In this document: piece by piece, positions 14,523-28,306 of the stretch
Layout of the letters: each line of letters begins with the position of its first letter
How positions within the stretch are numbered: position 1 is the first letter of the stretch
IMG/VR virus record: IMGVR_UViG_3300035698_002724
Coordinates: 1-28,814 of that record
DNA: 28,814 nt
Strand: one strand, 5' to 3'
From: a virus
Translations under genes and position numbers: made by a program
The notes under the pieces: generated by a model
What the model saw: only the letters and a program-made list of their open reading frames with translations
Database searches by the model: none
Told to the model about the DNA's origin: nothing

Positions 14523-14693
14523 ATGGATATAGTCGATGTTCTTGTGGCTATGGAGAAAAAAGACCTCGAGTTGTATCAGAAGCGTGTGTGGAACGAGCTT
14601 ATAGTTAAGAGTGGTTATTCAAAACCAACGGTAGCAGATCAAATTAAAGCAAGAAAAGAATCTCACGGTGATGTATTCGGACATTTCATATGA
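14523..14693 (+). CDS. Hypothetical basic helical protein, 56 aa
   Basis: AGGAGGTG sits at 14512-14519, four bases before ATG 14523. Two helices with mixed charge are followed by KPTVADQIKARKESHG. The TGA overlaps the start of the KdsB-like gene, so the two may be co-translated. No family is recognised. Confidence 0.55.
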   Translation: MDIVDVLVAMEKKDLELYQKRVWNELIVKSGYSKPTVADQIKARKESHGDVFGHFI

Positions 14694-15403
14694 ATATTGT
14701 AGCAATCATACCAACGCGGCTTGACTCAGAGCGGTTTCCCGGAAAGGCGTTGCATCTCATTAACGGTATTCCGATGATTCAGCGTGTGTACGGTCAAGTT
14801 CGGAAGTCTAATATTGTGGATCAGGTCTTTATTGCAACATCAGACGAAGAAATACAGAAAGCCGTAACAGATGTTGGGTACAGGTGCATACTGACCAGTA
14901 AGGACAACAAGACGGGTACGGATAGGGTAGCTGACGCATGTAACAGGCTTGAGCTTCCAAGTGACACGATAGTTTTGAACGTACAGGGCGATCAGCCAAT
15001 GGTTGACCCTGCCTGTTTAGAGTATGCCACAATTCCATTTGAGTTTGATAAAAGAATCGGCATGTGTACCCTGGCAACCCTGATAAGTGACGAGAAAGAA
15101 ATAAACAATCCAAATAACGTAAAGGTGGTTTTTGACGAGAATGGTGACGCACTGTACTTTTCAAGATCCGCTATTCCATACGGACAAAAGGAAGTTTACA
15201 AGCATCTTGGGATATACACATACACCGTTGATTTTTTAAAGGAATTTCATCTGCTTCAGGAGGGATTTCTTGAAAAACAGGAGGGGCTCGAACAACTTCG
15301 TGCGCTCGAGGCTGGACACAAGATAAGGGTGATAGCTACAGATTATGATTCTCCATCAGTGGATGCACCAGCAGACATAGCAAAGATTGAGAGGCTGTTA
15401 TAA
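14690..15403 (+). CDS. kdsB: CMP-Kdo synthetase (3-deoxy-manno-octulosonate cytidylyltransferase) homologue
   Basis: At 237 aa it is close to KdsB length. Diagnostic motifs are present: IIPTRLDSERFPGKAL (6-21, nucleotide-binding loop), KTGTDRVADA (74-83), LNVQGDQPMV (96-105), LYFSRSAIPYG (155-165), KHLGIYTY (171-178), EQLRALEAGHKIRV (201-214) and VDAPADIAKIE (224-234). KdsB joins Kdo to CMP from CTP in the cytoplasm of Gram-negative bacteria, for LPS core synthesis. The usual DEP metal-site triad reads DQP here, which may alter kinetics or substrate (for example Kdo8N). It is embedded in phage genes directly before the large terminase. It could supply CMP-sugar for LPS remodelling or for virion glycosylation by the Maf-like protein at 25159. 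Confidence 0.9.
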   Translation: MNIVAIIPTRLDSERFPGKALHLINGIPMIQRVYGQVRKSNIVDQVFIATSDEEIQKAVTDVGYRCILTSKDNKTGTDRVADACNRLELPSDTIVLNVQGDQPMVDPACLEYATIPFEFDKRIGMCTLATLISDEKEINNPNNVKVVFDENGDALYFSRSAIPYGQKEVYKHLGIYTYTVDFLKEFHLLQEGFLEKQEGLEQLRALEAGHKIRVIATDYDSPSVDAPADIAKIERLL

Positions 15404-15423
15404 CAGACATACCGCAGGAACTA

Positions 15424-17103
15424 ATGCCGTTGTTTATCTGGATGGAGCGATGGCACTACAGTAAGCAAGATGAGTTCGTTCGTGCGCTTAAAGACCACTG
15501 GGAGGTCTTGTTTTGTGCCGGGAATGGATCTGGTAAGACGGCTATATTTTACTGGAACATAATCATGTATGCGGTAGGCATACACCCGCATCAATTTGCA
15601 AAGACTCCTTTAAAGATAAAAATACTTGTTAACGATTTTGAACATGGGTACGGGAAGATATTCAAAGAAACAGTGCTTGAACCGCACCATATGCCTGAGC
15701 GGTTTGAGATATGGTCAGAGTCAGCCAAGAACAAGAATAGACCAATTTCGTTCTTTACAGAGGCGCACAAGGCCGAGGCGGAGCTTAAAAGGCTTTTAAA
15801 GAAGTATCCTGACGCAGAGATAAAGAACCAGCCTGAGAGCACCATAGGCCCCATGCTTCACGAAAGCTATATCGAAAAGCTTCCGTCAAGGGATGACAGA
15901 ACCCTGAAGCTGAAGAATGTGAGCAACAGCCTTATATTCTTCCAAACGTCTGAGCAGAAGAAAAAGCTTCATAGTGGAACAAACTTTGACGTTCTTGGCT
16001 GTGACGAGGAAGCAGAGTATCAGGTTTATGATGAATCAAAGCGTGGGTTAAGAACAGCGAAGGGTGGCGGTAAGATACTACACGCCTTCACGCCTCCATT
16101 TGACGAAGAGGTAAAGCATAAAGGCCCAAGCTGGACAAAGTTTAAATTAATAGATCCGTTCGAGAAGGGTGAGGACGATGACGTATATGTTGTAAGGGCG
16201 GCAATGGCTGACAACCCTTCTATTACAGATGCTTATATAAGGCGCTTTAGCAAAGGGAAGACCGAGCAACAGTTAAGGATTCAGCTATATGGCGACTACC
16301 CAACATGGGGCGAAATGATTCATCCTGACTTTCAGGACTTCTTGTGGGATGCTCAGAAAAGATTAGGCCATCTGTTGCCGTACGATTTTGAAATTCCGTT
16401 TGACGATCCGGATGTTAAGTTTGAAACAGCCATTGACTGGCACTCGTCTAAACCGCCTGCGATAGTGTGGACTTTTGAATACATGGAGGGGCCGAATAAG
16501 GGTGACATAGTTGTATGGGACGAACTATCTCCACAGGCAGGCATAGGGTTGACTATAACGCAAACCGCCAATGCAATCAAGGAAATAGAAGGACATAGGT
16601 TTAGTTCTGATAGAAGGCGAATAGTAAGATACGGCGACCCTAAGATGCGAGATAAGGATAATAGTCTTATAACAGGATTTAACGCATGGGAAGAGTTCAG
16701 GCATAACGGGATCAGGATGACAGAGGGCTGGAATAGAAACCCTGATGTTGGCATATCAACTGTGAACGATTTCCTTCGAGGAAAGTCTGAATCTCACAAG
16801 GAACACCCAAGGATTTTCATTAAGGAAGATTGCAAGACCACCAGGCACAATATGAAAAACCATTATTGGGTACGACAAAAAGACGGAACCGGGACACCAG
16901 ACCCTAAGTTTTCTGATTACTGTGTGTCTTTAAGATATATCCTGCAACGGAAAAGCAGGAAGATAAAGAAGGGAATGGTCAGAGAAAAAAGCAAGTGGCC
17001 TCTGAATAGTTACGAGGGAAATTCAACTTTTGGGCCGTATGGCGGAAACTATGTAGAAGACTACAGTAAATTCATAGACCCATCGGCATATTCAAGGAGA
17101 TAG
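15424..17103 (+). CDS. terL: Terminase large subunit (packaging ATPase/nuclease)
   Basis: The N-terminal ATPase has Walker A CAGNGSGKT (31-39), Walker B FDVLGCDEE (188-196) and the coupling-like motif FTPP (222-225). The C-terminal RNase-H-like nuclease begins at TAIDWHSSKPP (335-345, acidic D338), continues through VVWDELSP (363-370) and has a late KFSDYCVSLRY acidic site. At 559 aa it is a full-length large terminase. It cuts concatemeric DNA and pumps it through the portal encoded at 20227. AGGA precedes ATG 15424. Its small subunit is about 4.3 kb upstream. Confidence 0.95.
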   Translation: MPLFIWMERWHYSKQDEFVRALKDHWEVLFCAGNGSGKTAIFYWNIIMYAVGIHPHQFAKTPLKIKILVNDFEHGYGKIFKETVLEPHHMPERFEIWSESAKNKNRPISFFTEAHKAEAELKRLLKKYPDAEIKNQPESTIGPMLHESYIEKLPSRDDRTLKLKNVSNSLIFFQTSEQKKKLHSGTNFDVLGCDEEAEYQVYDESKRGLRTAKGGGKILHAFTPPFDEEVKHKGPSWTKFKLIDPFEKGEDDDVYVVRAAMADNPSITDAYIRRFSKGKTEQQLRIQLYGDYPTWGEMIHPDFQDFLWDAQKRLGHLLPYDFEIPFDDPDVKFETAIDWHSSKPPAIVWTFEYMEGPNKGDIVVWDELSPQAGIGLTITQTANAIKEIEGHRFSSDRRRIVRYGDPKMRDKDNSLITGFNAWEEFRHNGIRMTEGWNRNPDVGISTVNDFLRGKSESHKEHPRIFIKEDCKTTRHNMKNHYWVRQKDGTGTPDPKFSDYCVSLRYILQRKSRKIKKGMVREKSKWPLNSYEGNSTFGPYGGNYVEDYSKFIDPSAYSRR

Positions 17104-17106
17104 ATA

Positions 17107-17472
17107 ATGGCATTTTTAAAACCAGTACAGGTCGGAACCACAAACAAATGGTCTTATTTCGCTACGGGCGCGAGTCATATAGCCGAGTCGTTGTCAGTTT
17201 TCAGCAATGACGTTCCGTTTGTTCTTGTTGAGATCAGGATTCACCTATCTAAGGCTGGTGCGGCAAACGACTTAACGGCTACCGTGGACTCAAACGCAGG
17301 TACAGCATACGATACAATCATTCTTACTCAGGACATGAGCCTTGTTGTAGACTTGCAGGAGGTCTATGACGATAACGAGAAGTGTTTCCAGAGCGGGGAT
17401 CAGCTTGACTTTGCATGGACAAATGGCGGATCTGCTACATGGGGCCTTGAAGTAATAGTTGAACCGAAATAA
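17107..17472 (+). CDS. Probable small virion protein, beta-rich, 121 aa
   Basis: AAGGAGAT precedes ATG 17107. The product appears all-beta with alternating hydrophobics (FVLVEIRIHLSKAG, TIILTQDMSLVVDL, WGLEVIVEPK). This suggests a jelly-roll-like or decoration domain. It lies between the large terminase and a fibre/spike gene, so a structural role is likely. No family assigned. Confidence 0.65.
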   Translation: MAFLKPVQVGTTNKWSYFATGASHIAESLSVFSNDVPFVLVEIRIHLSKAGAANDLTATVDSNAGTAYDTIILTQDMSLVVDLQEVYDDNEKCFQSGDQLDFAWTNGGSATWGLEVIVEPK

Positions 17473-17481
17473 GGAGCTACA

Positions 17482-20193
17482 ATGTCTAAACGATATATAA
17501 ACGGTGTATTCAGCTTCGTTGACACTACGTTTGATAGCATAACAGTCTCAGGGTTAACCGCTTCAGAGATAACCGCTACCGATGCGAGTAAAAAGCTTCA
17601 GTCCTTGGCGGTTGCTACCTATCCAAGCCTGACCGAACTCAGCTATGTAAAAGGATTAGCCTCTTCTGCACAGACTCAGTTAAATGGTAAAGAAGTATTT
17701 CATGGCATTTCTGCAAGTGGGGCGTTGACCTTTGATAACTCTACCCACATACTGACAATGGCGGCAGGAGCTAATACATACTGGTACAAAGGTGTTCAGT
17801 ACACTACAGCAAGTGCAATTACTTGTGACATTGATACTTATGAAACCCTGACAACTAACACTCTTTATTACTTTTACTTTGACGCAGCAGCAGGACTTCT
17901 TAAATGTTCAGATACTTATTGGAATTTTAAAAATGTTGTTTTTGTAGCTACTCTGTTTTGGAATGGTACTGCCGGAGCAACTCAGCAGGAAACACATAAT
18001 GCTACAAGAGATGTAGATTGGCATGAATGGGCGCATGATACTATTGGAACAAGATACGAGAGTGGTTCAACGCTGACCTATCCAGATGCTTCACATGATG
18101 ATGACTTACAGATTGAAACAGGAACCTATGCTGATGAAGACTTAGAGTTTATTACTGGTCAGGAAACTACCATGAGAGGCTGGTATCAGGTTAGCTCTGG
18201 TGTTTATACCTATGCAGATTATGCAACCCCTTATCTCGGAACATCAGGACAACCTCAATGGCTTGATACGGACGACTATACGTTAAAGGATGTTGGATCT
18301 TCTGACTTTGTTTCCTACTGGGTATATGCCTCTAATGATATTGCTCGGAGCATTTATGTAATTCCTACTCAGGCGGCTACAGCCTATAATACTATTCGTT
18401 TAGCGAGAGCGGCTGATGTTCCAGAAGTAATTAACCTGAACATTAATCCAGAATTTAAACTGATTTATAAGCTTATCTACAAGGGTGACGGTGAGTTCCG
18501 GGAAAGTGTGGACTATAGAAGCTCTGGTGCAATACCCGGTGGAGGACTGAATACTGTCTCTGCTGGTTCTGTTTCATTTACTCCATCTGGAACTATCTCT
18601 GCTACAGACGTTCAAACAATGGGTGAGGAGCTGGATTCTGAGAAAGCTATCATAGGTGCAAACAACGATATTACAAGCCTGACAGCCCTTGACGGCTCAG
18701 ACCTTGACCTTGGTGGCGGATATCTGACAGACACACAGAACATTCCCGACCTGTTAGCGAATGGGCCGGGGTACTGGTTTGATGGGACTGATGACGTTAT
18801 TACAGTTGCAGACGATGCAGATATTGATTTAGGAACAACTGATGATTTTTATCTTTCTGCTATTATCAAGCCCACAGATGTCACAAGAACAACTGACTAT
18901 ATAATTAACAAGGAAGCTGGCGGGATCGGCTATGGGCTATACCTCAACGAAGATGATTTATACATCAGGCTTGATGACGGAACACATGACGTTTCTGCAA
19001 TAATCGGAACGGCTGTTTTTACCAGTGGCAAAATATCAATTATCTGTGTCACTTTTGATAGGTCTGGTAATGCAACTGCGTACATAAACGGAAATTCTGT
19101 TGGAACTGTTGATATCTCAAGCGTTACCGATACACTCGCAAATGCTGGAAATCTACACATCGGGCAGGATTCCGCAGGGACAAATGAATTTTTAGGTGAG
19201 ATATTTGAACATAGAATAGGCAATCTCACTCTTGATAACACAGACGCAGTTGACAAGGCTATAATAAATGGCGGTGCGCTGCCGTATAAGTACATCGGTG
19301 CGAGCCAGACAGCCAAGCAAGAAACCACTTTTGTGGCTGACGTTGGTGACTGGACGTTAATTTCTGGTGCTGAAACATCCACATGGGCATTTGATACAGA
19401 TCATGGCGTTCTTGCTGTAACATCAGTGGGAAGTATTACTAAACCGTTGTTACAAGATACTTCAAACACATGGGTTGAACCCGGTAAAAAATACAGGGTA
19501 GATGTTTCTTACACTGTTAATTCTGGGTCTGCAAGACTCACGGCAGTTTCTCTTGGAGGCTCTACAGTTTATCCAGATGATGTTATATTATCTGGGTCTG
19601 GTATTTTTTCTATAGATATTGTTGCTGGAAGTTCCACCGATGACTTTAATATTTCTTTTGATGGCAGGTATGAATTTAATTTAAGTATTTTTAACATTAA
19701 GACAACACAGATTGGATGTGTGCTGGATCTCAATCCAGAAGGTGTAACCGCTGGAACATGGGTAGATAACAGCGGAAACAAACTACACGGAGCATTAAGC
19801 GGAGCAATTCCGACAGGCCTGCAAACAGGAAAACAACAGCTTCTTAGTATTACAAATGTAGCCTTTAATTCTGATGCAGATACAGCACTTTTGACTATTC
19901 CTGTCGGGTATTCAGCAACCCTTGATTATGCCAGAATCGTAGCTGGAGCAGATGCCGCTTCAACAGATATTTCAATCGGCCAGAATGGTGCAACGACAGA
20001 CTTTATTCCAACCAATCAGATGGATAATCTTGACGCAGCTAATGATGTTGTTATTGTCCAGCCGATTCCGAACACGACACCCTTGCAGCTTCAGACGTAT
20101 GCCGCCGGGACTGTGATCGAAATGACTGTAGCTAATCAGGCTGGTGGGGCTACGAATACTGTTTACCTTTATGGCACGCCGGTAGCAGAGTAA
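17482..20193 (+). CDS. Tail fibre or spike with LamG/concanavalin-like domain, 903 aa
   Basis: AAGGAG precedes ATG 17482. The N-terminus (~20-70) has the TASEI-x-ATDASKKLQSLAVATYPSL pattern common at the head of phage fibre proteins. Residues ~80-345 are a long beta region. Residues ~430-585 form a LamG/concanavalin-like lectin (YWFDGTDDVITVADDADIDL, then ATAYINGNSVGTV and LHIGQDSAG). A second possible carbohydrate-binding sandwich lies at ~615-735, and a C-terminal beta module follows. Likely a receptor-binding or host-glycan-binding virion protein; no catalytic residues are recognised. Its place between terminase and portal is unusual for a fibre. It could alternatively be a head fibre. Confidence 0.75.
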   Translation: MSKRYINGVFSFVDTTFDSITVSGLTASEITATDASKKLQSLAVATYPSLTELSYVKGLASSAQTQLNGKEVFHGISASGALTFDNSTHILTMAAGANTYWYKGVQYTTASAITCDIDTYETLTTNTLYYFYFDAAAGLLKCSDTYWNFKNVVFVATLFWNGTAGATQQETHNATRDVDWHEWAHDTIGTRYESGSTLTYPDASHDDDLQIETGTYADEDLEFITGQETTMRGWYQVSSGVYTYADYATPYLGTSGQPQWLDTDDYTLKDVGSSDFVSYWVYASNDIARSIYVIPTQAATAYNTIRLARAADVPEVINLNINPEFKLIYKLIYKGDGEFRESVDYRSSGAIPGGGLNTVSAGSVSFTPSGTISATDVQTMGEELDSEKAIIGANNDITSLTALDGSDLDLGGGYLTDTQNIPDLLANGPGYWFDGTDDVITVADDADIDLGTTDDFYLSAIIKPTDVTRTTDYIINKEAGGIGYGLYLNEDDLYIRLDDGTHDVSAIIGTAVFTSGKISIICVTFDRSGNATAYINGNSVGTVDISSVTDTLANAGNLHIGQDSAGTNEFLGEIFEHRIGNLTLDNTDAVDKAIINGGALPYKYIGASQTAKQETTFVADVGDWTLISGAETSTWAFDTDHGVLAVTSVGSITKPLLQDTSNTWVEPGKKYRVDVSYTVNSGSARLTAVSLGGSTVYPDDVILSGSGIFSIDIVAGSSTDDFNISFDGRYEFNLSIFNIKTTQIGCVLDLNPEGVTAGTWVDNSGNKLHGALSGAIPTGLQTGKQQLLSITNVAFNSDADTALLTIPVGYSATLDYARIVAGADAASTDISIGQNGATTDFIPTNQMDNLDAANDVVIVQPIPNTTPLQLQTYAAGTVIEMTVANQAGGATNTVYLYGTPVAE

Positions 20194-20226
20194 GACACGA
20201 ATAATAGAAGACAGGGGTAACAACAG

Positions 20227-22158
20227 ATGCTCACAGATGGAATGAATGATAAAGACCTAAAGTGCTTTAAGACCTTTATAAAGGCATACGACCATCAATA
20301 CAAGCTGAACTCTTACGCATACGAGAACTACGATGAGGATCTGGAATATTACACAGGGTATCGTAATGAGAACAAATATCCTCTACCGTACAGCATGTTC
20401 TTTAATAAGCTTCTTCCGAGGGTTCAGAACGTGCTTGCAAGATTCATGGAGCATCTTTACCAGGGTGGGACGAATAATCTCGTAAGCGTAAACCCAAGAA
20501 ATGCAGACGATGTTTTGAGAGCTCCAAAGGTTGAGGGACTGTTAAATTCACAGCTTGAGAACCTTAACAATATAGATGTAAATGGCGGGGCATACGTTCA
20601 CAACTTTGCATGGATGTTTAACGCTCTGACATGGGGTAAGGGTATTACAAAGATGTACTGGCGCAAGGAGGATAGAATAACTCCAAGGCGTGTGTCTGTT
20701 CCAACGGTGGGGCCAAATGGTCAGATCCAGTATGTTGACGTAGTGACCGAGCAGAACCAGACAGTGTATGACGCTCCGTACTCAGAAGTGTTACACAACA
20801 AGATGTTCGTACCACACCCGTTCTACAAGAGCATAGAGAAAATGCCCTTCGTGTTTTGCGTGTATAGTCGGTCGCTTGACTACATAAAGAAGATGGCTGA
20901 CAAGGGTGTGTTTAACAAGAAAGCCGTAAAGAATATCGGGTGGAGCGGTACGAGACAAAATGAGACTTATTCTACTGGAACCACATATCAGGACGCAGGT
21001 GAAGCATACTCCAAGAGCTTAGAGCTTGAGGGAGTATATTACGAAGACTTTAACGATGACAGGGTTTCTCCTGAAGTCGATGTGATAGAAGGGTACGGAA
21101 GGTATATATTTCCAGAGGACGAAGCACCGTACGAAGTCGGAAGCGGGATTAAGATTAAAGGCCCGGAGTCTGACGCAATCGTTCATATCGGAAACTACAA
21201 AACGCTTTTGAGTGTTAAGAAGTGGCGATACGGTAAGAAACCGTTCTTTGACATATCCGGTTATTACCATCCTGAGCTTTTTTGGGACATAGGTATGATT
21301 CGACTTGGAAAGGCCGTTCAGGAGCAATACAACACCCTTGGCAACGCAAGATTCAGCAATGCAATAATGCTCGTAAACCAGATGATAAAGGTTAAGAAGG
21401 ATGCAGACATTGATCCGGCACATCTTGTTTGGCGACCATACGGTATAGTTCCAGTTGATGAAATGACAGACATTGAGCCAATCGTAACTCCTGACGCTTC
21501 TCAAAGCAGGGTGTTCAGCGAGCAAGAGCAGTTCTTTGAAGGGATCCTTTCCGAGATGACCGGGGAAACACCGTACAATCTTGGGCAGACCCCCGACCGG
21601 CAGGAATTTGTAGGCACAATGTACTCTCTTCAGCAGGTAGGTCAGGCAAGGGCGAAACTCTTACTGATGACAATGGATTATCAGGGATTCAAGCCATTCC
21701 TTGAGTACATGATGCTTCTAAACACATACCACCTTCCCCAAGACCAGTTTGCCAAGATAGTCGGTGAGGATGGTGACGTAAAGTTCAATCAGTTATTTGC
21801 ACCTGACATTCATCCAAACTACGACTTCACGGTTAGATACACGAGTATGGAGCCTGCGCTTGGAAAACAGTTTAAAATGCAACAGCTTATACAGTATGCT
21901 CAAATGTGGGAGGGAAATCCGCATTTACAGCAATACCAGTTTATGAAATCAATCCTTGAAATGATGGACTTCCCTGCTCCGGAAAGGTTCTTGAATACAC
22001 CACAGCAGGTTCAGCAACAGGGACAGCAGGCACAGCAGGCACAGACACAGCAGAATGAACAGGTTCAAATGGCAGGGGCGGCTATTCAGGACAACCTTGC
22101 TGAAAATAATGCTAAGAGAGAAATGGCAAGAGATATGGTTAAGGGCTTATTAAAATAA
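20227..22158 (+). CDS. Portal protein
   Basis: The length (643 aa), position between terminase/fibre and scaffold/capsid, and sequence features support a portal. They include an N-terminal wing helix (YKLNSYAYENYDEDLEYYTGY), central alpha/beta wing with WRKEDRITP, a long stem/crown region (FWDIGMIRLGKAVQEQYNTLGNAR) and a helical C-terminus. A Gln-rich stretch (~597-625, QQVQQQGQQAQQAQ) near the end is low complexity. Twelve copies form the vertex through which TerL packages DNA. The family is assigned by synteny and general pattern more than by a single motif. Confidence 0.85.
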   Translation: MLTDGMNDKDLKCFKTFIKAYDHQYKLNSYAYENYDEDLEYYTGYRNENKYPLPYSMFFNKLLPRVQNVLARFMEHLYQGGTNNLVSVNPRNADDVLRAPKVEGLLNSQLENLNNIDVNGGAYVHNFAWMFNALTWGKGITKMYWRKEDRITPRRVSVPTVGPNGQIQYVDVVTEQNQTVYDAPYSEVLHNKMFVPHPFYKSIEKMPFVFCVYSRSLDYIKKMADKGVFNKKAVKNIGWSGTRQNETYSTGTTYQDAGEAYSKSLELEGVYYEDFNDDRVSPEVDVIEGYGRYIFPEDEAPYEVGSGIKIKGPESDAIVHIGNYKTLLSVKKWRYGKKPFFDISGYYHPELFWDIGMIRLGKAVQEQYNTLGNARFSNAIMLVNQMIKVKKDADIDPAHLVWRPYGIVPVDEMTDIEPIVTPDASQSRVFSEQEQFFEGILSEMTGETPYNLGQTPDRQEFVGTMYSLQQVGQARAKLLLMTMDYQGFKPFLEYMMLLNTYHLPQDQFAKIVGEDGDVKFNQLFAPDIHPNYDFTVRYTSMEPALGKQFKMQQLIQYAQMWEGNPHLQQYQFMKSILEMMDFPAPERFLNTPQQVQQQGQQAQQAQTQQNEQVQMAGAAIQDNLAENNAKREMARDMVKGLLK

Positions 22159-22173
22159 TACCGGGGGCGGATT

Positions 22174-22758
22174 ATGATGGAAAATGCTGAAAGAGAAAAG
22201 TACGAGAAGATTTGGGAGTCACAGGAGTACAGGAGGAGCAATTCTCCAGGGGAGATGCTTCTAAGAAGACTCCCTATTCTTCAGTGGCTTAAAGACCAAG
22301 AAGTTGAAACAGTTCTTGACGCAGGGTGTGGAGAAGGCAGGCTTTTGATGGGGCTTAAAAAAGCCAATCCAGAATGGGAGGTGAGCGGAATTGATATCGC
22401 AAAAAACGCAATTGATTTCAGGCTTAAAGATATTTTTACACAAGGTTGCTTGTGGGAAGAAGGCGCATATGACGATGGCGGCTACGATGCTATCACATGC
22501 ACAGACGTTCTTGAGCATATACCGCCCGACCATGTTATGGATGTGCTTCGTTTATTTAGGAAGTATTCAAACAAGTGCGTTTTTCTAAGCGTTTGTTTGA
22601 TTGATGATATATTCGGTGCCAAGTTAATTGGCGAACCACTTCATTTAACTGTAAGGAAATACTACTGGTGGCTGGAGAAGATAAGAATGGTTGGGTTTGA
22701 AGTTAAACACGCAATGATTCAGCCCGGACTCTTCGACTGCTTTCTGGTGAAATTATGA
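22174..22758 (+). CDS. SAM-dependent class I methyltransferase, 194 aa
   Basis: The SAM-binding motif I VLDAGCGEGRLL (46-57), motif II GIDIAKNAIDF and the CTDVLEHIPPDH segment (about 109-120) define a class I methyltransferase of the Methyltransf_11/23 type. The C-terminal GEPLHLTVRKYYWWLEKI resembles small-molecule and sugar methyltransferases. It lacks DPPY, so it is not a DNA N-methyltransferase. It lies between portal and scaffold, inside the head operon. Substrate unknown; a glycan or capsid residue is plausible in view of the KdsB and Maf-like genes (inference). Confidence 0.85.
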   Translation: MMENAEREKYEKIWESQEYRRSNSPGEMLLRRLPILQWLKDQEVETVLDAGCGEGRLLMGLKKANPEWEVSGIDIAKNAIDFRLKDIFTQGCLWEEGAYDDGGYDAITCTDVLEHIPPDHVMDVLRLFRKYSNKCVFLSVCLIDDIFGAKLIGEPLHLTVRKYYWWLEKIRMVGFEVKHAMIQPGLFDCFLVKL

Positions 22759-23135
22759 GTGGAAATGGCATAAAGCCACTATTAAAGAGACTTACGAAAT
22801 TAGCTCGTTCGAGTGAAGAGAGTATGCAATGTGTTGAAAGGTATGCGCTTCTCATAAGAGAGCCAGATGGGGATATTAAGTTTCTTTACGACTCTCTGGT
22901 GATGTTACAGGGGTTAGCCGCACAGACAATATTGTCGGACAAGTTCACGAATCTTTCTCCGGAAGAGAAGGACTTGGAGCAGCGAGTCTTAAAAGCGGTT
23001 ATGGAATTATGTGATTTCTTGTTAAATCCGGTACAGCAAAACGCTACCGGAACCGATAAAATGATGGAGTCAACCAAACATCTTGGCAACATCGACAATG
23101 GGAAGCGCAGGCGACCCGAAGGAGCACCAGCATGA
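22755..23135 (+). CDS. Hypothetical head-operon protein, 126 aa
   Basis: It overlaps the methyltransferase stop (ATGA) and the next gene start. The product is helical, with a basic N-terminus (KPLLKRLTKLARSSEE), a central acidic-to-neutral helix region and a basic Arg-rich end (NGKRRRPEG). It sits between methyltransferase and scaffold; a head-assembly accessory role is inferred from position only. Confidence 0.65.
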   Translation: MSGNGIKPLLKRLTKLARSSEESMQCVERYALLIREPDGDIKFLYDSLVMLQGLAAQTILSDKFTNLSPEEKDLEQRVLKAVMELCDFLLNPVQQNATGTDKMMESTKHLGNIDNGKRRRPEGAPA

Positions 23136-23929
23136 CACAGCCAGCAGTTAGCGACATTGCAGTACAGGAACCATTTCAGACAGAGGAACCTACAGAGCAG
23201 ACAACAGGTGTACCAAGCGAGACGCAAACACCGGCAGTTGACGTTGAAGCGTTGAGCACAGAGTTGGCAAAGTTTAATATTGATACTCCAGCAGCGATAG
23301 AGGGCATGGTAACAGCTTCTAAGCAGGCTGGTAATTCGGCAAGGTTACTCGGAGATGAAAGAAACAGAAACACGGCACTTGAGCAACAGCTTGCAAAAGT
23401 ACAGGCGCAGGTTGATAAGCTTTCAAGTTCTCAGGATTTATCACATTATGACGCGAACGATGGAGAGGTTGATTTAAAGGATGTCATTAAAACTTCTGTA
23501 AGGGAAGTAATCCAGACAGACATCCGTGGGCCACAGCAGGAATATATTGCAGAACGAAATGCAATCATGGCCGATCCGGATTATAGTCCGGTAGCCGAGG
23601 TGTTTGAGGCTCACATAAACTCACCACAGGTTCAAAACCTGTTAGCTGCAAGACAGACTACGCAGATAGCAGAGTACAACAAGGTCAAGACTGCTCAGTA
23701 TAAAGCACTTCTTGGTCAGGCGTCAGAGGTTATAAATCAGATGAAAGAGAATCCGGTAGTTACGCCTCCGCACGTGGAGACGAACGGACAGAGTGCCACT
23801 TTCGATCCGAGTGTTGATGATGAGGATTCAGCATCACTTAAAAAAATGGTTGACCCGGAGAGATATACAGGCTCGAACGATGATTTAACAGAATTGGTGG
23901 CTAAACGGCTTTCATTCGCAAATCGGTAG
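23132..23929 (+). CDS. Capsid scaffold protein
   Basis: The N-terminal ~45 residues are acidic and low complexity (Gln/Glu/Thr/Pro). The middle contains a coiled-coil stretch (TALEQQLAKVQAQVDKLSSS, ~83-105), and the C-terminus is helical and charged (VDDEDSASLKKM...). Length (265 aa), composition and the position directly before the capsid gene are typical of podovirus-like scaffolds. It would chaperone prohead assembly and leave before or during packaging. Assignment rests on synteny and composition. Confidence 0.75.
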   Translation: MTQPAVSDIAVQEPFQTEEPTEQTTGVPSETQTPAVDVEALSTELAKFNIDTPAAIEGMVTASKQAGNSARLLGDERNRNTALEQQLAKVQAQVDKLSSSQDLSHYDANDGEVDLKDVIKTSVREVIQTDIRGPQQEYIAERNAIMADPDYSPVAEVFEAHINSPQVQNLLAARQTTQIAEYNKVKTAQYKALLGQASEVINQMKENPVVTPPHVETNGQSATFDPSVDDEDSASLKKMVDPERYTGSNDDLTELVAKRLSFANR

Positions 23930-23932
23930 GAG

Positions 23933-23955
23933 CCTCCATTCGGGTAACATGGAGG
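23933..23955 (+). promoter_or_regulatory. RBS-sequestering hairpin in the capsid gene leader
   Basis: CCTCCAT (23933-23939) pairs perfectly with ATGGAGG (23949-23955) around a 9-nt loop. The 3' arm contains the GGAGG RBS, 9 bases before ATG 23965. The hairpin could lower or regulate translation initiation. Confidence 0.55.
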
Positions 23956-23964
23956 AAATAGAAA

Positions 23965-25146
23965 ATGGCAGTTGGAGAACATGCAATACCGACAAGTTAC
24001 TCTACACAGAGTATCACGGCAAACACAAACGTAAGGGACGTTTCGGATCTACTGGATCTCTGGGCGCATAAAGACACGCCCATTCTTAACAGGGTTGAGT
24101 GGGGCGCGGAAACAGGTGGACTCGTAATCGAGTGGGTATCTGAACATCTTGGGTTCAGGTACGTTGTTAACTCAGCACAGGTAGCATCGGCGGGTTCGTC
24201 TCTCGTTATCGTAAGCGGAGTTGCGGGTCTTAGCCTCGCAAACCAGATGAAGCAGATTCAGGAAGGCACAATGCTTATGGCTCATAAAACAGGAGGTACA
24301 CACGTATTCTGGATTGTGTCTTCTGCGCCGGCTACAGGCACGATCACCTTTTCTGTTCTGGCTAACACTTCAGCCGTTCTTACGGCATCCAGCAAGGTTT
24401 ATATTGTTGGTCACTTTGCGAACGAGGGAAGCTCTCAGTTTGATGACAGAAGTAGAGCAAGGGCGTTGCTGTCCAATAAGTTCACGATTCTGCGTCAGGA
24501 CATTAAAATCACTGGCTCAGAGGCAAGCACTGATATGTACGCAGTGAACAACGAGGAAAGCCATCAGGTGGCAATGAGGCTGCTTGAGCTTCAGAAAGAC
24601 AGGGAGTGGAGTCTTCTGTACACCAAAGGCCAGTCACGGTCATCTACTGTTGCCTCATACGCACAGGGTGTATTTGACTTCCTTGACGGATATTCCGCAG
24701 ATGACTGGGTTGATACGTCATCCGCAGCAATAACCGAAACCCTGGTAAACGACATGGCTTCGGAAATATGGGAAAATGGCGGGGCGAAGATGCTTACGCT
24801 TGCCGGGAATAAAACCCATATCAGGAAATTTACCCAGTGGGATCAGGCGAGGGTAAGGACTGTGCCTGATGGGAAATTGGGCGGTCATCATGTCACACGG
24901 TATCTGACCGATTGCGGTATTGAGCTTGAGCTTGTGCCCATGAAGAAAGTACCTGTGTCAGTTCTGTTTATGCTTGACTGTAGCGAGATTCGGCTTCGGG
25001 CCAAAAAGCGCAGAAAGCTTATTCTTAACACTATCGCTGATACTGGCGTTGATGCGATTCAGAAATACTTGCTTTCAGAGTATTCTCTGGAAGTGAGAGG
25101 TTACGACAAGGGCTACCACGGTATGTTTATGGCTCTTACATCGTAG
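23965..25146 (+). CDS. Major capsid protein, SU10-like (DUF5309) type
   Basis: The 393-aa protein follows scaffold. Its N-terminus (TANTNVRDVSDLLDLWAHKDTPILNRVEWG), central beta insertion, conserved YAQGVFDFLDGYSAD, and C-terminal RYLTDCGIELELVPMKKV...RKLILNTIADTGVDAIQKYLLSEYSLEVR match the DUF5309/SU10 capsid family: an HK97 fold with an E-loop and a Ser/Thr-rich surface region (~75-150). It builds the icosahedral shell. RBS GGAGG lies inside a hairpin. The Maf-like gene follows after 12 bases, making this protein a candidate acceptor for glycosylation. Confidence 0.82.
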   Translation: MAVGEHAIPTSYSTQSITANTNVRDVSDLLDLWAHKDTPILNRVEWGAETGGLVIEWVSEHLGFRYVVNSAQVASAGSSLVIVSGVAGLSLANQMKQIQEGTMLMAHKTGGTHVFWIVSSAPATGTITFSVLANTSAVLTASSKVYIVGHFANEGSSQFDDRSRARALLSNKFTILRQDIKITGSEASTDMYAVNNEESHQVAMRLLELQKDREWSLLYTKGQSRSSTVASYAQGVFDFLDGYSADDWVDTSSAAITETLVNDMASEIWENGGAKMLTLAGNKTHIRKFTQWDQARVRTVPDGKLGGHHVTRYLTDCGIELELVPMKKVPVSVLFMLDCSEIRLRAKKRRKLILNTIADTGVDAIQKYLLSEYSLEVRGYDKGYHGMFMALTS

Positions 25147-25158
25147 AAGGGATATGTT

Positions 25159-26373
25159 ATGACGATAGGGTACGAAGAGTTCAAAAGTATTAACGGAACC
25201 ACATCCAAGATAATGCCTGACTATGCTTACGATTATATCTTTAAATGCAGTGAGCATACGGGTAATGTTTTGGAGGTTAAGTGGGCAAAGAACATCAAAA
25301 AGAACGCTTCCCTGTTGTCTAAGCATGGCGGAATTAAACGTTTAGAGGGGTTCGGTGCTGGTAAGGCTATGGTAGGTGTCGGTGCTGGCCCCTCTTACAA
25401 CACGAATAAATCCGTGTTGAAAAACATGTTTGATTTCAATTCAAGATACGAACTTCGTGACCAATCGTTTCTGATTGTAGCGACAAACCATCAGTTCAAA
25501 CCGTTGCTGAAAGAGGGGATTTATCCTCACTTTGTTTTACTTTTGGACGCAACGGAACATGCTTACGAACAGTTGTGTGTAAAGATTCCAAAGCTTGGCA
25601 GAAAGAGCATATTGATTGCTTCAATCTTCGCTGACCACAAAACGTTGAAGGAGTGGGATAAGCAGGGTGGCAAGATATATTTCTATCTTCCGGAGTCAGA
25701 GCAGGCAACATCAAGCTTCAAAAAGGTGTGCAAGAAAGATGTAAAAGAGTTTTCCATGCCGTCATGCGGTAACGTATTGAACATGGCGTGGATGATGAGC
25801 TTGCAGATATTCGGCAACACGGTCTTTATGGCTGTAGGTGCTGACTACTCCTTTGACTATGGAGACATAGAGAGGCGCAGGAAAAGCATGTACGCTGATG
25901 GAAATGCAAGTGTGGATAGTGAGCGCCTTCAGATAAAGGATGACATGGTTTGGCAGGGGTTTAAGTTCGAGAGGGCCGATTCAGTAATAATGGACAGGCC
26001 CATAATTAACCTCGAACTTGTTGGAACCTCTCGTCAGATGTTTCTCTACAAATTATGGACTGAGATGCAGATGGCGATCTGGCAAAACATGGAACAATCA
26101 TTCAGCTATATAAACTGTTCTGAGCAGGGTGTTCTTGGCGTGATGGCTCATAGTTGGGATATTGCCGACCTGTACGATAAAAGCAATTGGTATCTTTTGG
26201 ATGAAATACTTCCAAATTATCATACGATGCGTTTAGATAACGCAGTTACATTATTTCAAAGGAGTAGAGCATGTCTGGAACCAGAAAAAAGCCTGCCATG
26301 TGCAGAAAATGCCGGGCTAGTTTTGCCGCTGAGGATGGGTTCTGCAAGAACTGCCGGCCAGTTGTCGATATAA
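25159..26373 (+). CDS. Maf/DUF115-like glycosyltransferase candidate, 404 aa
   Basis: GAAGGGA precedes ATG 25159. The Rossmann-like DUF115 (MAF_flag10) core is recognisable: VGAGPSY (about 74-80), FLIVATNHQF (104-113), HFVLLLDAT (124-132) and SCGNVLNMAWMMSLQIFG (202-219) followed by VFMAVGADYS (222-231). Maf proteins transfer CMP-activated nonulosonic sugars (sialic, pseudaminic, and reportedly Kdo) onto Ser/Thr of flagellin. Its place next to the capsid gene and the KdsB homologue at 14690 suggest virion protein glycosylation. The last ~35 codons overlap the zinc-ribbon gene at 26271 and look like secondary coding, so the ancestral protein may have ended earlier. Family from pattern recognition; acceptor inferred. 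Confidence 0.75.
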   Translation: MTIGYEEFKSINGTTSKIMPDYAYDYIFKCSEHTGNVLEVKWAKNIKKNASLLSKHGGIKRLEGFGAGKAMVGVGAGPSYNTNKSVLKNMFDFNSRYELRDQSFLIVATNHQFKPLLKEGIYPHFVLLLDATEHAYEQLCVKIPKLGRKSILIASIFADHKTLKEWDKQGGKIYFYLPESEQATSSFKKVCKKDVKEFSMPSCGNVLNMAWMMSLQIFGNTVFMAVGADYSFDYGDIERRRKSMYADGNASVDSERLQIKDDMVWQGFKFERADSVIMDRPIINLELVGTSRQMFLYKLWTEMQMAIWQNMEQSFSYINCSEQGVLGVMAHSWDIADLYDKSNWYLLDEILPNYHTMRLDNAVTLFQRSRACLEPEKSLPCAENAGLVLPLRMGSARTAGQLSI

Positions 26374-26498
26374 ACAGACACGTTAGCAATGGTTCAGTTT
26401 ACAGCGGAGCAGGAACGTTCGGAAAGGCTGAGTGGCATACTTCAGAATTTGGAGCTATGTGTAATGAATTTCCAATATCAAAGAGGGGGCGTAGATGA
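26271..26498 (+). CDS. Zinc-ribbon protein overlapping the Maf-like gene, 75 aa
   Basis: AAAGGAG lies 5 bases before ATG 26271, 103 bases inside the Maf-like frame. C-x2-C (CRKC) and C-x2-C (CKNC) in the first ~30 residues form a zinc ribbon; the rest is Gly/Ser/Phe-rich with a basic end (SKRGRR). It overlaps the next gene (ATGA). Real zinc-ribbon sequence and RBS make this the better reading in the overlap. Role unknown; it may partner the glycosyltransferase. Confidence 0.65.
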   Translation: MSGTRKKPAMCRKCRASFAAEDGFCKNCRPVVDINRHVSNGSVYSGAGTFGKAEWHTSEFGAMCNEFPISKRGRR

Positions 26499-26695
26499 GT
26501 ATAGATTTAATAAACAGCGGGATTTGTCAACTTTGCGGGACGTTTACTACCAACGTAGCGGATGGAAAGTTTAGACCATTCTGTGCGACATGCGAGAGAT
26601 CGATGAACGAAAAAATCGCACAAACAAAAGTTGGTAAGAAGTTTCCAAATGCAAGCTTGCAATTCCCTTCGGCTGAACAAAAAGAGGGAGAATAA
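26495..26695 (+). CDS. Zinc-ribbon protein, 66 aa
   Basis: It starts in an ATGA overlap and has CQLC and CATC separated by ~15 residues, a second zinc ribbon in tandem with the preceding one. A basic C-terminal tail follows (TKVGKKFPNAS). It may be a structural stabiliser or nucleic-acid-binding factor in the head operon. Two adjacent zinc-ribbon genes between Maf-like and beta-structured genes are unusual. Confidence 0.65.
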   Translation: MSIDLINSGICQLCGTFTTNVADGKFRPFCATCERSMNEKIAQTKVGKKFPNASLQFPSAEQKEGE

Positions 26696-26698
26696 AAA

Positions 26699-27346
26699 AT
26701 GGCTGGAAGTAATAATAAAGGATTTTTCAAAACATGTAACGCCAACGGGGTTGGTACTGAAACCTCCGGAACTGAGGTGGAGCTTGATTTCTCCACTATC
26801 ACTACCGGAACCGGTATGAGTATGAGCTTTGCTGGTCTTACTACAGGTACTGGCCTTGAGATAGCCGTTGACAGTGATGTAGTCACTACCGGAAAGGCTA
26901 TCGAGGTTCTGTCCGGTTCTGCGATGACTACAAGCGTGTTCTCGGTAAACGAGGATGGTGACGTTGTGGCGGCTGGAACAATAGGTGGAAGCAATGCTGT
27001 TTCTGCTGCGTTTACTGTAGCTACTGAGACAGGAAACACTATAACGGTTTCAGTCCAGCTAAATGATGCGGCTGGTACTGCCTGTGCAAAATCACAGGGT
27101 TTGTACGGATATATCGCAAGCGACACTGGTGGTATGGCTCTCGATACTGCACCGTCTGGTGGGGTAGCGGCTGGTACTGACGGAATGATTATAGAAACAC
27201 TGGCAGATCAGGGCTTCTGGTGTGTTTCGGAAGCTGACGGAGATATCGACATTGTACTTACGGAAACAGGAACAGGGGCAACGTACCTTGCGCTTATTCT
27301 TCCGAATGGCGACATCACTGTAAGTGGAGCAATTACTTTTACATAA
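26699..27346 (+). CDS. Repetitive beta-structured virion protein (decoration or head fibre), 215 aa
   Basis: AGGGAGA precedes ATG 26699. The product is rich in Gly, Thr, Ser, Ala and Val with repeated TTGTGxxxxF/L and TTGKAIEV-type units (STITTGTGMSMSFAGLTTGT, VVTTGKAIEVLSGS), ending in a beta-rich domain (NGDITVSGAITFT). Such repeats build beta-helices or beta-solenoids in phage fibres and head decoration proteins. Few charged residues and many Thr/Ser make it an attractive substrate for the neighbouring Maf-like enzyme (inference). Function is by composition and position. Confidence 0.65.
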   Translation: MAGSNNKGFFKTCNANGVGTETSGTEVELDFSTITTGTGMSMSFAGLTTGTGLEIAVDSDVVTTGKAIEVLSGSAMTTSVFSVNEDGDVVAAGTIGGSNAVSAAFTVATETGNTITVSVQLNDAAGTACAKSQGLYGYIASDTGGMALDTAPSGGVAAGTDGMIIETLADQGFWCVSEADGDIDIVLTETGTGATYLALILPNGDITVSGAITFT

Positions 27347-27370
27347 ACCTTTAAAAAACTGGAGGCGGTT

Positions 27371-28306
27371 TTGAAAGAAGTTCATATTATAGGGAAAGGC
27401 CCCGGATGGGACTTAGCACCTGATGAGGGTGAAACATGGGGAGCCAATGATTTATTGGCGTGGAGAAACGGCAACGTGAAACTTACGTTTTATATTGATC
27501 GGCACTTGCATTTAAAAGAAGACTCCGGGGATCTTTCCCTTATGAATGATGTTGTCACTGAACGGTGCAATAAACATCATGTCCCTGTATTTTGCACACA
27601 GAAATACGATGATATTCCAACAAGCATGGAGTTTCCTATTTACGATATAATAGATGCTTTTGGTGGAATAGATTATTTCGGCAACAGCATAGATTACATG
27701 ATTGCTTACGCTATTTACATGGGGTTCGAGCATATTCACCTGTATGGCGTGAACATGAAATACGGTACAGTTTATATTTGGGAGAAGCCGGTTACATCAT
27801 TCTGGCTTGGCGTAGCGATTGGGCATGGAGTAGAGGTGTCGGTACATGGAGCTAATTCAGAGATGCTGTTCACTGCTGACAGGAACCTTTATTCATACGG
27901 AACAGCACAGAACATGGATAGAGAGAACATAAAAATAAACAAAGCCTTACTAAAGGGCGCAGGACAAACGGGGGCAACCGATATGAACCTGACTTCAAAA
28001 GACAGAATTATTATACCAGCTATATTACCAACAAATGGTACGGCAGAAGAGATGGAAGCAAGGGACGATCTTATAAACTTAATTGACCTTAGTGACGATG
28101 AAAAAGAACAGCTTAAAGTAAGAAACCACCAGGACAAGCCTAGTGTGATTGTCTTTGACGAGACTGTTTCTACCACCAAAGACTTCGATATCCCGGCTGA
28201 CTGTATGAGCCTTTTGGTAAAAACAATGGAAGGGCTTAGTCTTGAAAAGAAGATTACACCACACACATTACCTCTTTATAAAAAGGTTATGGAAAAATGT
28301 CAATAA
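27371..28306 (+). CDS. Second DUF115/Maf-like Rossmann protein, 311 aa
   Basis: GGAGG (27361-27365) lies before TTG 27371. Residues ~4-165 look like a shorter DUF115-type fold: IIGKGPGWDLAP, LTFYIDRHLH, YFGNSIDYMIAYAIYMGFEHI and LYGVNMKYG, the last two matching the GN...A...G...G-D/N block of the gene at 25159. The C-terminal ~130 residues form a separate helical/beta domain (DRIIIPAILPTNGTAEEMEA...). It could be a second transferase or a non-catalytic relative. The ancestral family is common in phages but uncharacterised to my knowledge. Confidence 0.65.
   Translation: MKEVHIIGKGPGWDLAPDEGETWGANDLLAWRNGNVKLTFYIDRHLHLKEDSGDLSLMNDVVTERCNKHHVPVFCTQKYDDIPTSMEFPIYDIIDAFGGIDYFGNSIDYMIAYAIYMGFEHIHLYGVNMKYGTVYIWEKPVTSFWLGVAIGHGVEVSVHGANSEMLFTADRNLYSYGTAQNMDRENIKINKALLKGAGQTGATDMNLTSKDRIIIPAILPTNGTAEEMEARDDLINLIDLSDDEKEQLKVRNHQDKPSVIVFDETVSTTKDFDIPADCMSLLVKTMEGLSLEKKITPHTLPLYKKVMEKCQ

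Follow-up and report, generated by a model that had tools for sequence, protein, structure and literature searches.

A Maf-like gene next to the capsid gene in a phage lineage undescribed in GenBank: candidate acidic-sugar modification of the virion and a possible contribution of phage-encoded KdsB

Does a phage with a homolog of the CMP-Kdo synthetase gene kdsB and a Maf-like gene in one late gene run use both to decorate its own particle? The preliminary description had proposed this as a dedicated pathway. The window, that is, the whole stretch of DNA analyzed here (28,814 bases, an entire IMG/VR virus record), carries replication genes in its left part and, from about 14.7 kb, a run of genes on a single strand in the following order:

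14690..15403, + strand: kdsB, 3-deoxy-manno-octulosonate cytidylyltransferase homolog, 237 aa; ends 20 bp before the terminase gene
15424..17103, + strand: terminase large subunit (phrog_2, 8.5e-12; 65% identity to relative L007)
17482..20193, + strand: LamG-domain virion or fibre-like protein (Laminin_G_3, 9.7e-17)
20227..22158, + strand: portal protein, SU10 type (SU10_portal, 5.6e-24); the query for relatives
22174..22758, + strand: class I SAM methyltransferase (Methyltransf_23, 1.9e-11)
23132..23929, + strand: scaffold-like protein, a putative name; precedes the capsid gene, a position kept in most relatives
23965..25146, + strand: major capsid protein SU10_MCP (PF17236, 5.5e-40)
25159..26373, + strand: Maf-like (PF01973/DUF115) protein, candidate CMP-sugar glycosyltransferase, 404 aa (PF01973, 1.4e-14)
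26495..26695, + strand: small zinc-ribbon-like protein, CxxC...CxxC in its sequence; homologs in L007, L066 and L095
26699..27346, + strand: Ser/Thr/Gly-rich protein of presumed virion type, judged by composition; possible acceptor
27371..28306, + strand: GKGxGW...WGxND protein; homologs in L066 and L083
28297..28814, + strand: SU10 adaptor protein, cut by the window end (SU10_adaptor, 3.8e-8)

The capsid, portal and adaptor proteins match SU10 families of Pfam. No DNA-level relative of the window was found among GenBank phages, and the terminase and portal proteins had no TBLASTN match there; the lineage is thus undescribed among these phages. TBLASTN with the LamG protein (903 aa), encoded between terminase and portal, gave no match in the relatives covered by that search, and this region is occupied in relatives by other fibre or sugar genes.

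The Maf-like gene starts 12 bp past the stop of the capsid gene, as the preliminary description had it. PF01973 covers residues 44-233 of the product (54.7 bits, cut-off 34.6) and is its only domain at E up to 1; the Maf N-terminal domain Maf_flag10_N (PF20157) is absent, and we therefore call the protein Maf-like rather than Maf. Among reference Maf-type proteins of Desulfobacterota, which carry PF01973, two of the three tested also match PF20157 (one above the cut-off), and the bacterial Maf L057 has both domains. Since the phage protein has 404 aa and lacks this domain, its recognition of an acceptor must differ. A single-sequence search revealed no close relatives in viral contigs or phages, and a two-sequence profile found none in bacterial genomes and nothing in the PDB. 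The closest solved chain by sequence alone was the pterin kinase MptE, at a non-significant E of 0.041.

Homologs for a deeper profile came from a portal-based scan followed by a profile scan. A profile of 13 phage sequences aligned with six Desulfobacterota Maf-type proteins at 99.1% probability over 265 columns (hhalign; 98.1-99.1% across the profile comparisons), while reversed and unrelated control profiles reached 0.1-0.3% at most. The alignment extends beyond the PF01973 core through a W-E...N-x-(T/S)-E-x-G segment, which reads N-A-T-E-G-G in bacterial Maf; N-C-S/T-E-x-G of the phage family is aligned there, with N319, C320, E322 and G324 nearly invariant.

An AlphaFold model predicted with 13 sequences (pLDDT 80.3, pTM 0.83) is, among solved structures, most similar to Maf 5MU5 (Foldseek 5.9e-8; Z 21.6 over 250 residues with rmsd 3.3). 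MptE (8SD5) follows at Z 14.6, then two SteA proteins at Z 10-11 and the CMP-sialyltransferases ST8SiaIII, CstII and ST6Gal1 at Z 8.1-8.5, although values of about 8 are close to what common folds score. D130 of the phage protein, present in 13 of 13 sequences, aligns with E324 of 5MU5, and D229, present in at least 90% of the 13, aligns with D415. We take E324 and D415 to be the putative catalytic residues of Maf. The Maf/DUF115 assignment of the preliminary description is thus upheld by the Pfam match, by profile-profile alignment with bacterial Maf (99.1%) and by structure comparison, in which Maf is the best match (Z 21.6).

The same data bear on the alternative that the protein is an MptE-like pterin pyrophosphokinase, or a relative that serves in packaging and has no catalytic activity. 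PF01973 is named after MptE in Pfam, and MptE ranks second by structure and first by sequence in the PDB. Maf is clearly closer, however: the model alignment reaches residue 371 with Maf and 322 with MptE, and the Maf profile match takes in the segment after the core. Moreover, MptE 8SD5 has an SDLDG-type acidic stretch following its IIPD segment (IIPDIIVSDLDGD), whereas the phage family lacks SDLDGD: at this place all 13 sequences read D130-A/G-x, and none has D-x-D. We regard the MptE alternative as highly improbable, and the Maf-like protein is probably a CMP-sugar transferase.

The identification of the product of 14690-15403 as a KdsB homolog, also made in the preliminary description, was borne out by curated models and by full-length structure alignments. 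It passes TIGR00466 (195.5 bits, cut-off 155.2) and NF003952 (278.3, cut-off 193), stays below the cut-off of NF003948 (217 versus 281) and matches CTP_transf_3 of Pfam at 3.6e-50. Alignments with solved KdsB structures cover its full length, with E from 1e-31 down to 9e-46. Stretches QGD, YFSR, HxGxY, EQLR and VD-x-P, seen in the alignment to solved KdsB, are present, and the sequence thus points to a genuine, intact and functional-looking homolog of CMP-Kdo synthetase. Its closest cellular relatives are KdsBs of Desulfobacterota (49-53% identity), which share with it QGDQP in place of QGDEP, and in the maximum-likelihood tree it is sister to four of them (L010-L013; support 100/95). This affinity suggests a desulfobacterotal host for the phage. 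In L010-L013 the kdsB genes adjoin housekeeping genes and not glycosylation islands, as read from the sequence. The GC content of the phage kdsB (44.2%) is in line with that of the window (42.9%).

Twelve distinct relatives were identified in IMG/VR (L007, L066, L068, L070, L071, L072, L083, L085, L086, L089, L094 and L095); with the near-copies L067, L069 and L093 they make 15 records, all of them fragments, several of 46-50 kb. PF01973 is above the cut-off in the window and in every relative. All twelve distinct relatives encode the Maf-like homolog on the strand of the capsid gene and downstream of it, directly in ten and behind a short insertion in two (L083 and L095); the gap in the direct cases is 4-71 bp where measured, and 12 bp in L071. 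The insertions are L083:9360-9881, which by eye looks like a LAGLIDADG-type homing endonuclease, and L095:9627-9983. The recurrent order of capsid gene and Maf-like gene is more than chance. Maf-like and portal proteins diverge in parallel (Spearman 0.67, Mantel p 0.001), as would be expected for an inherited core gene. Because it is kept after the capsid gene in all relatives, we consider the Maf-like gene a core gene of this lineage with its SU10-type capsid and portal.

The kdsB gene behaves differently. None of the 15 relative records contains a CMP-sugar synthetase (CTP_transf_3, PF02348); among the phages seen, kdsB is hence private to the window phage, and it is not conserved together with the Maf-like gene. 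Conversely, among eight other kdsB-bearing virus records, PF01973 exceeded the cut-off in one, a jumbo phage. Co-occurrence was therefore rejected as support, and the dedicated kdsB plus Maf-like pathway of the preliminary description fails in that form, the relatives keeping the Maf-like gene without kdsB, an outcome which that description had itself named as refuting. Nor can a fair probability be attached to the presence of kdsB beside the Maf-like gene, since the window was picked for having kdsB. In the 462-kb uncultured jumbo phage LR756500.1, the kdsB homolog and a short PF01973-type protein gene (about 130143-130814 and 212289-212699, respectively) are some 82 kb apart.

Gram-negative hosts make CMP-Kdo of their own. 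The missing kdsB in relatives is hence not fatal to the broader idea, as the host may supply the donor in the way that the E. coli cell supplies CMP-Kdo to CbMaf of C. botulinum (PMC11339370).

The distribution of kdsB also agrees with a second explanation, in which the gene is a stand-alone auxiliary metabolic gene acting on the LPS of the host, by Kdo supply or to control superinfection, and is unrelated to the Maf-like gene, whose product would use host CMP-sugars or another donor. It would account for a fixed Maf-like gene in a lineage whose other members, all those seen, lack kdsB; other viral kdsB genes adjoin HAD-phosphatase-like or kdsA genes, and an LPS function has previously been assigned to viral kdsB (PMC9529941). 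On the other hand, no further LPS gene was recognized in the window, kdsB lies 20 bp before the terminase gene within the packaging and head gene run, and the relatives L070, L086 and L089 have other sugar genes in the terminase-portal region. We consider a stand-alone role of kdsB possible, at about one chance in three. In the T4-like marine virus contigs L003:9390-10690 and L002:4678-5978, a HAD-phosphatase-like gene stands just before kdsB, which suggests a kdsC-kdsB-like pair in virus genomes. A GNGPS-type protein of L003 looked by eye like the product of 27371-28306, but BLAST gave only E 0.031, and the T4-like kdsB viruses were dropped with it as a parallel to the window.

Further genes of sugar type surround the head genes. 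The methyltransferase of the window (22174-22758) is found at the same place in L007 (55% identity) and weakly matches, at 22-30% identity, methyltransferases that L068, L083, L085 and L089 encode downstream of the Maf-like gene. Its earlier description as a sugar or small-molecule methyltransferase stands as regards the class I SAM fold but not the type of substrate, the match to the pseudaminic-acid-associated methylase model TIGR03587 being weak and below the cut-off. Relatives have, around the Maf-like gene, methyltransferases, sulfotransferases (L066 and L083), C-methyltransferase-type genes, a hexapeptide transferase and GT2 transferases; L089 has a GDP-mannose 4,6-dehydratase above the curated cut-off, and L070 and L086 have GDP-fucose-synthase-like enzymes below the cut-off of that model. 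A radical SAM/SPASM protein is encoded in 11 of the 14 relative records searched and is absent from the window. In nearly every relative it lies between the Maf-like gene and the adaptor gene (L066:11822-12784, L068:16806-17624, L070:17598-18536, L072:17052-17957, L083:13224-14132, L085:9306-10238, L089:15704-16618, L094:12254-13165 and L095:12336-13250).

A small cupin gene directly precedes the portal gene in L066, L068, L070-L072, L085, L086, L089 and L094 (coordinates L066:4399-4836, L068:9571-10011, L070:9670-10005, L072:9672-9998, L085:2172-2498 and L094:5250-5585), but not in the window or L007; it resembles sugar-isomerase cupins. This exchangeable set fits tailoring of a glycan on some product of the head module, with modification of DNA or of a cofactor as a possible alternative, and the sugar, methyl, sulfo and radical-SAM genes of the relatives strengthen the theme of glycan modification around the head genes.

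Two proteins encoded downstream had been linked to the pathway. The product of 26699-27346 is indeed rich in Ser and Thr (23.7% together) and Gly (14.9%), as claimed in the preliminary description, and its role in the virion is presumed; its C-terminal half has 46% identity to a protein of L083, and it has no match among GenBank phages. The product of 27371-28306, by contrast, had been called a second DUF115-like protein, and this reading was rejected: it matches PF01973 over 25 residues at E 0.021, below the cut-off, and its three-member profile aligns with the Maf-like family of the window at 0.1% probability and with bacterial Maf at 0.3% (hhalign). By eye, the protein has an apparent Rossmann-like N-terminal part and a C-terminal domain that occurs alone in L095:14218-14529, near the adaptor gene.

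Taken together, the reading we prefer is that a late CMP-sugar transferase glycosylates a virion protein, with CMP-Kdo boosted by KdsB in the window phage; we give it a probability of about 0.4. On this view, the Maf-like protein is a short O-glycosyltransferase of the Maf type that depends on a CMP-sugar and is expressed from the late operon together with the capsid. It would most likely transfer an acidic sugar, either Kdo or a nonulosonate of the host, to Ser/Thr residues in the virion; the capsid and the adjacent Ser/Thr/Gly-rich protein are the first candidates for the acceptor. The acquired KdsB may increase CMP-Kdo from host Kdo, while relatives would use host CMP-sugars together with other sugar-tailoring enzymes of their own. 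The catalytic activity of the Maf-like protein, its sugar donor, its acceptor and its metabolic coupling to KdsB are inferred. If the Maf-like protein is a CMP-sugar transferase, a virion protein is its somewhat favored target; that KdsB feeds it is a nearly even matter, tilting slightly against. Rather unlikely, in our view, is the wider proposition that the whole lineage has a capsid-linked Maf-type acidic-sugar coat with exchangeable tailoring (methyl, sulfo, deoxy-sugar, radical SAM), which in the window phage would put Kdo, a sugar of lipopolysaccharide, on a virus particle via KdsB.

The target could instead be the host surface (flagellin, pilus or LPS), modified against superinfection. 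Bacterial Maf proteins modify flagellin (PMC4065374, PMC11339370), and Maf-type proteins are present in Desulfobacterota, the group suggested by KdsB; yet each of the twelve distinct relatives keeps the gene with the capsid gene, in a late structural position, and its product lacks the Maf N-terminal domain. A host-surface target seems quite unlikely to us.

If the proposed virion glycosylation is correct, Maf-type O-glycosylation would occur outside flagella and a phage would encode an acidic-sugar coat. The capsid gene with its adjacent transferase gene would offer a simple system for studying recognition by Maf, and a phage protein family labelled only "MptE-like" in databases would gain a testable role; uncultured phages do carry proteins annotated in this way. 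Even without Kdo, a transferase gene after the capsid gene across a phage lineage would be an unusual core gene. No account of Maf-type modification of virions was found in the open-access literature searched; phage capsid glycosylation and Kdo transfer by Maf both exist.

The phage KdsB resembles known CMP-Kdo synthetases (KdsB/CKS) in its full-length match over curated cut-offs, with a Desulfobacterota-like sequence, and differs in its setting, a phage packaging region with no other recognized genes of the Kdo pathway. With Maf (Magnetospirillum 5MU5, CbMaf, Aeromonas Maf1) the Maf-like protein shares the central Rossmann-like PF01973 domain with its GxGPS motif, acidic residues at the E324/D415 positions and then the W-E...N-x-(T/S)-E-x-G segment. 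It has, however, 404 aa against about 640 and no Maf_flag10_N domain, its gene is linked to the capsid gene and not to flagellin or nonulosonate genes, and its activity is predicted. As to the sugar, the earlier remark that Maf accepts Kdo has a published precedent in CbMaf, which transfers Kdo onto Ser/Thr (+220 Da; PMC11339370). MptE, the 6-hydroxymethylpterin diphosphokinase (8SD5), shares Pfam family and core fold with the phage protein (Z 14.6), which, however, is without SDLDGD and whose extra C-terminal elements match Maf instead. CMP-sialyltransferases of GT29/GT42 (ST8SiaIII, CstII and ST6Gal1) use CMP-sugars, as proposed for the phage protein, and have a similar core fold (Z 8.1-8.5, near the general background), with no sequence relation to it at the levels tested. 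Finally, capsids of the mycobacteriophages Che8 and Rita are, by the account given in a later paper, glycosylated by phage-encoded transferases (Freeman et al. 2023, cited in PMC11256854), whereas the candidate described here is of the Maf type, would use an acidic CMP-sugar and is encoded directly after the capsid gene.
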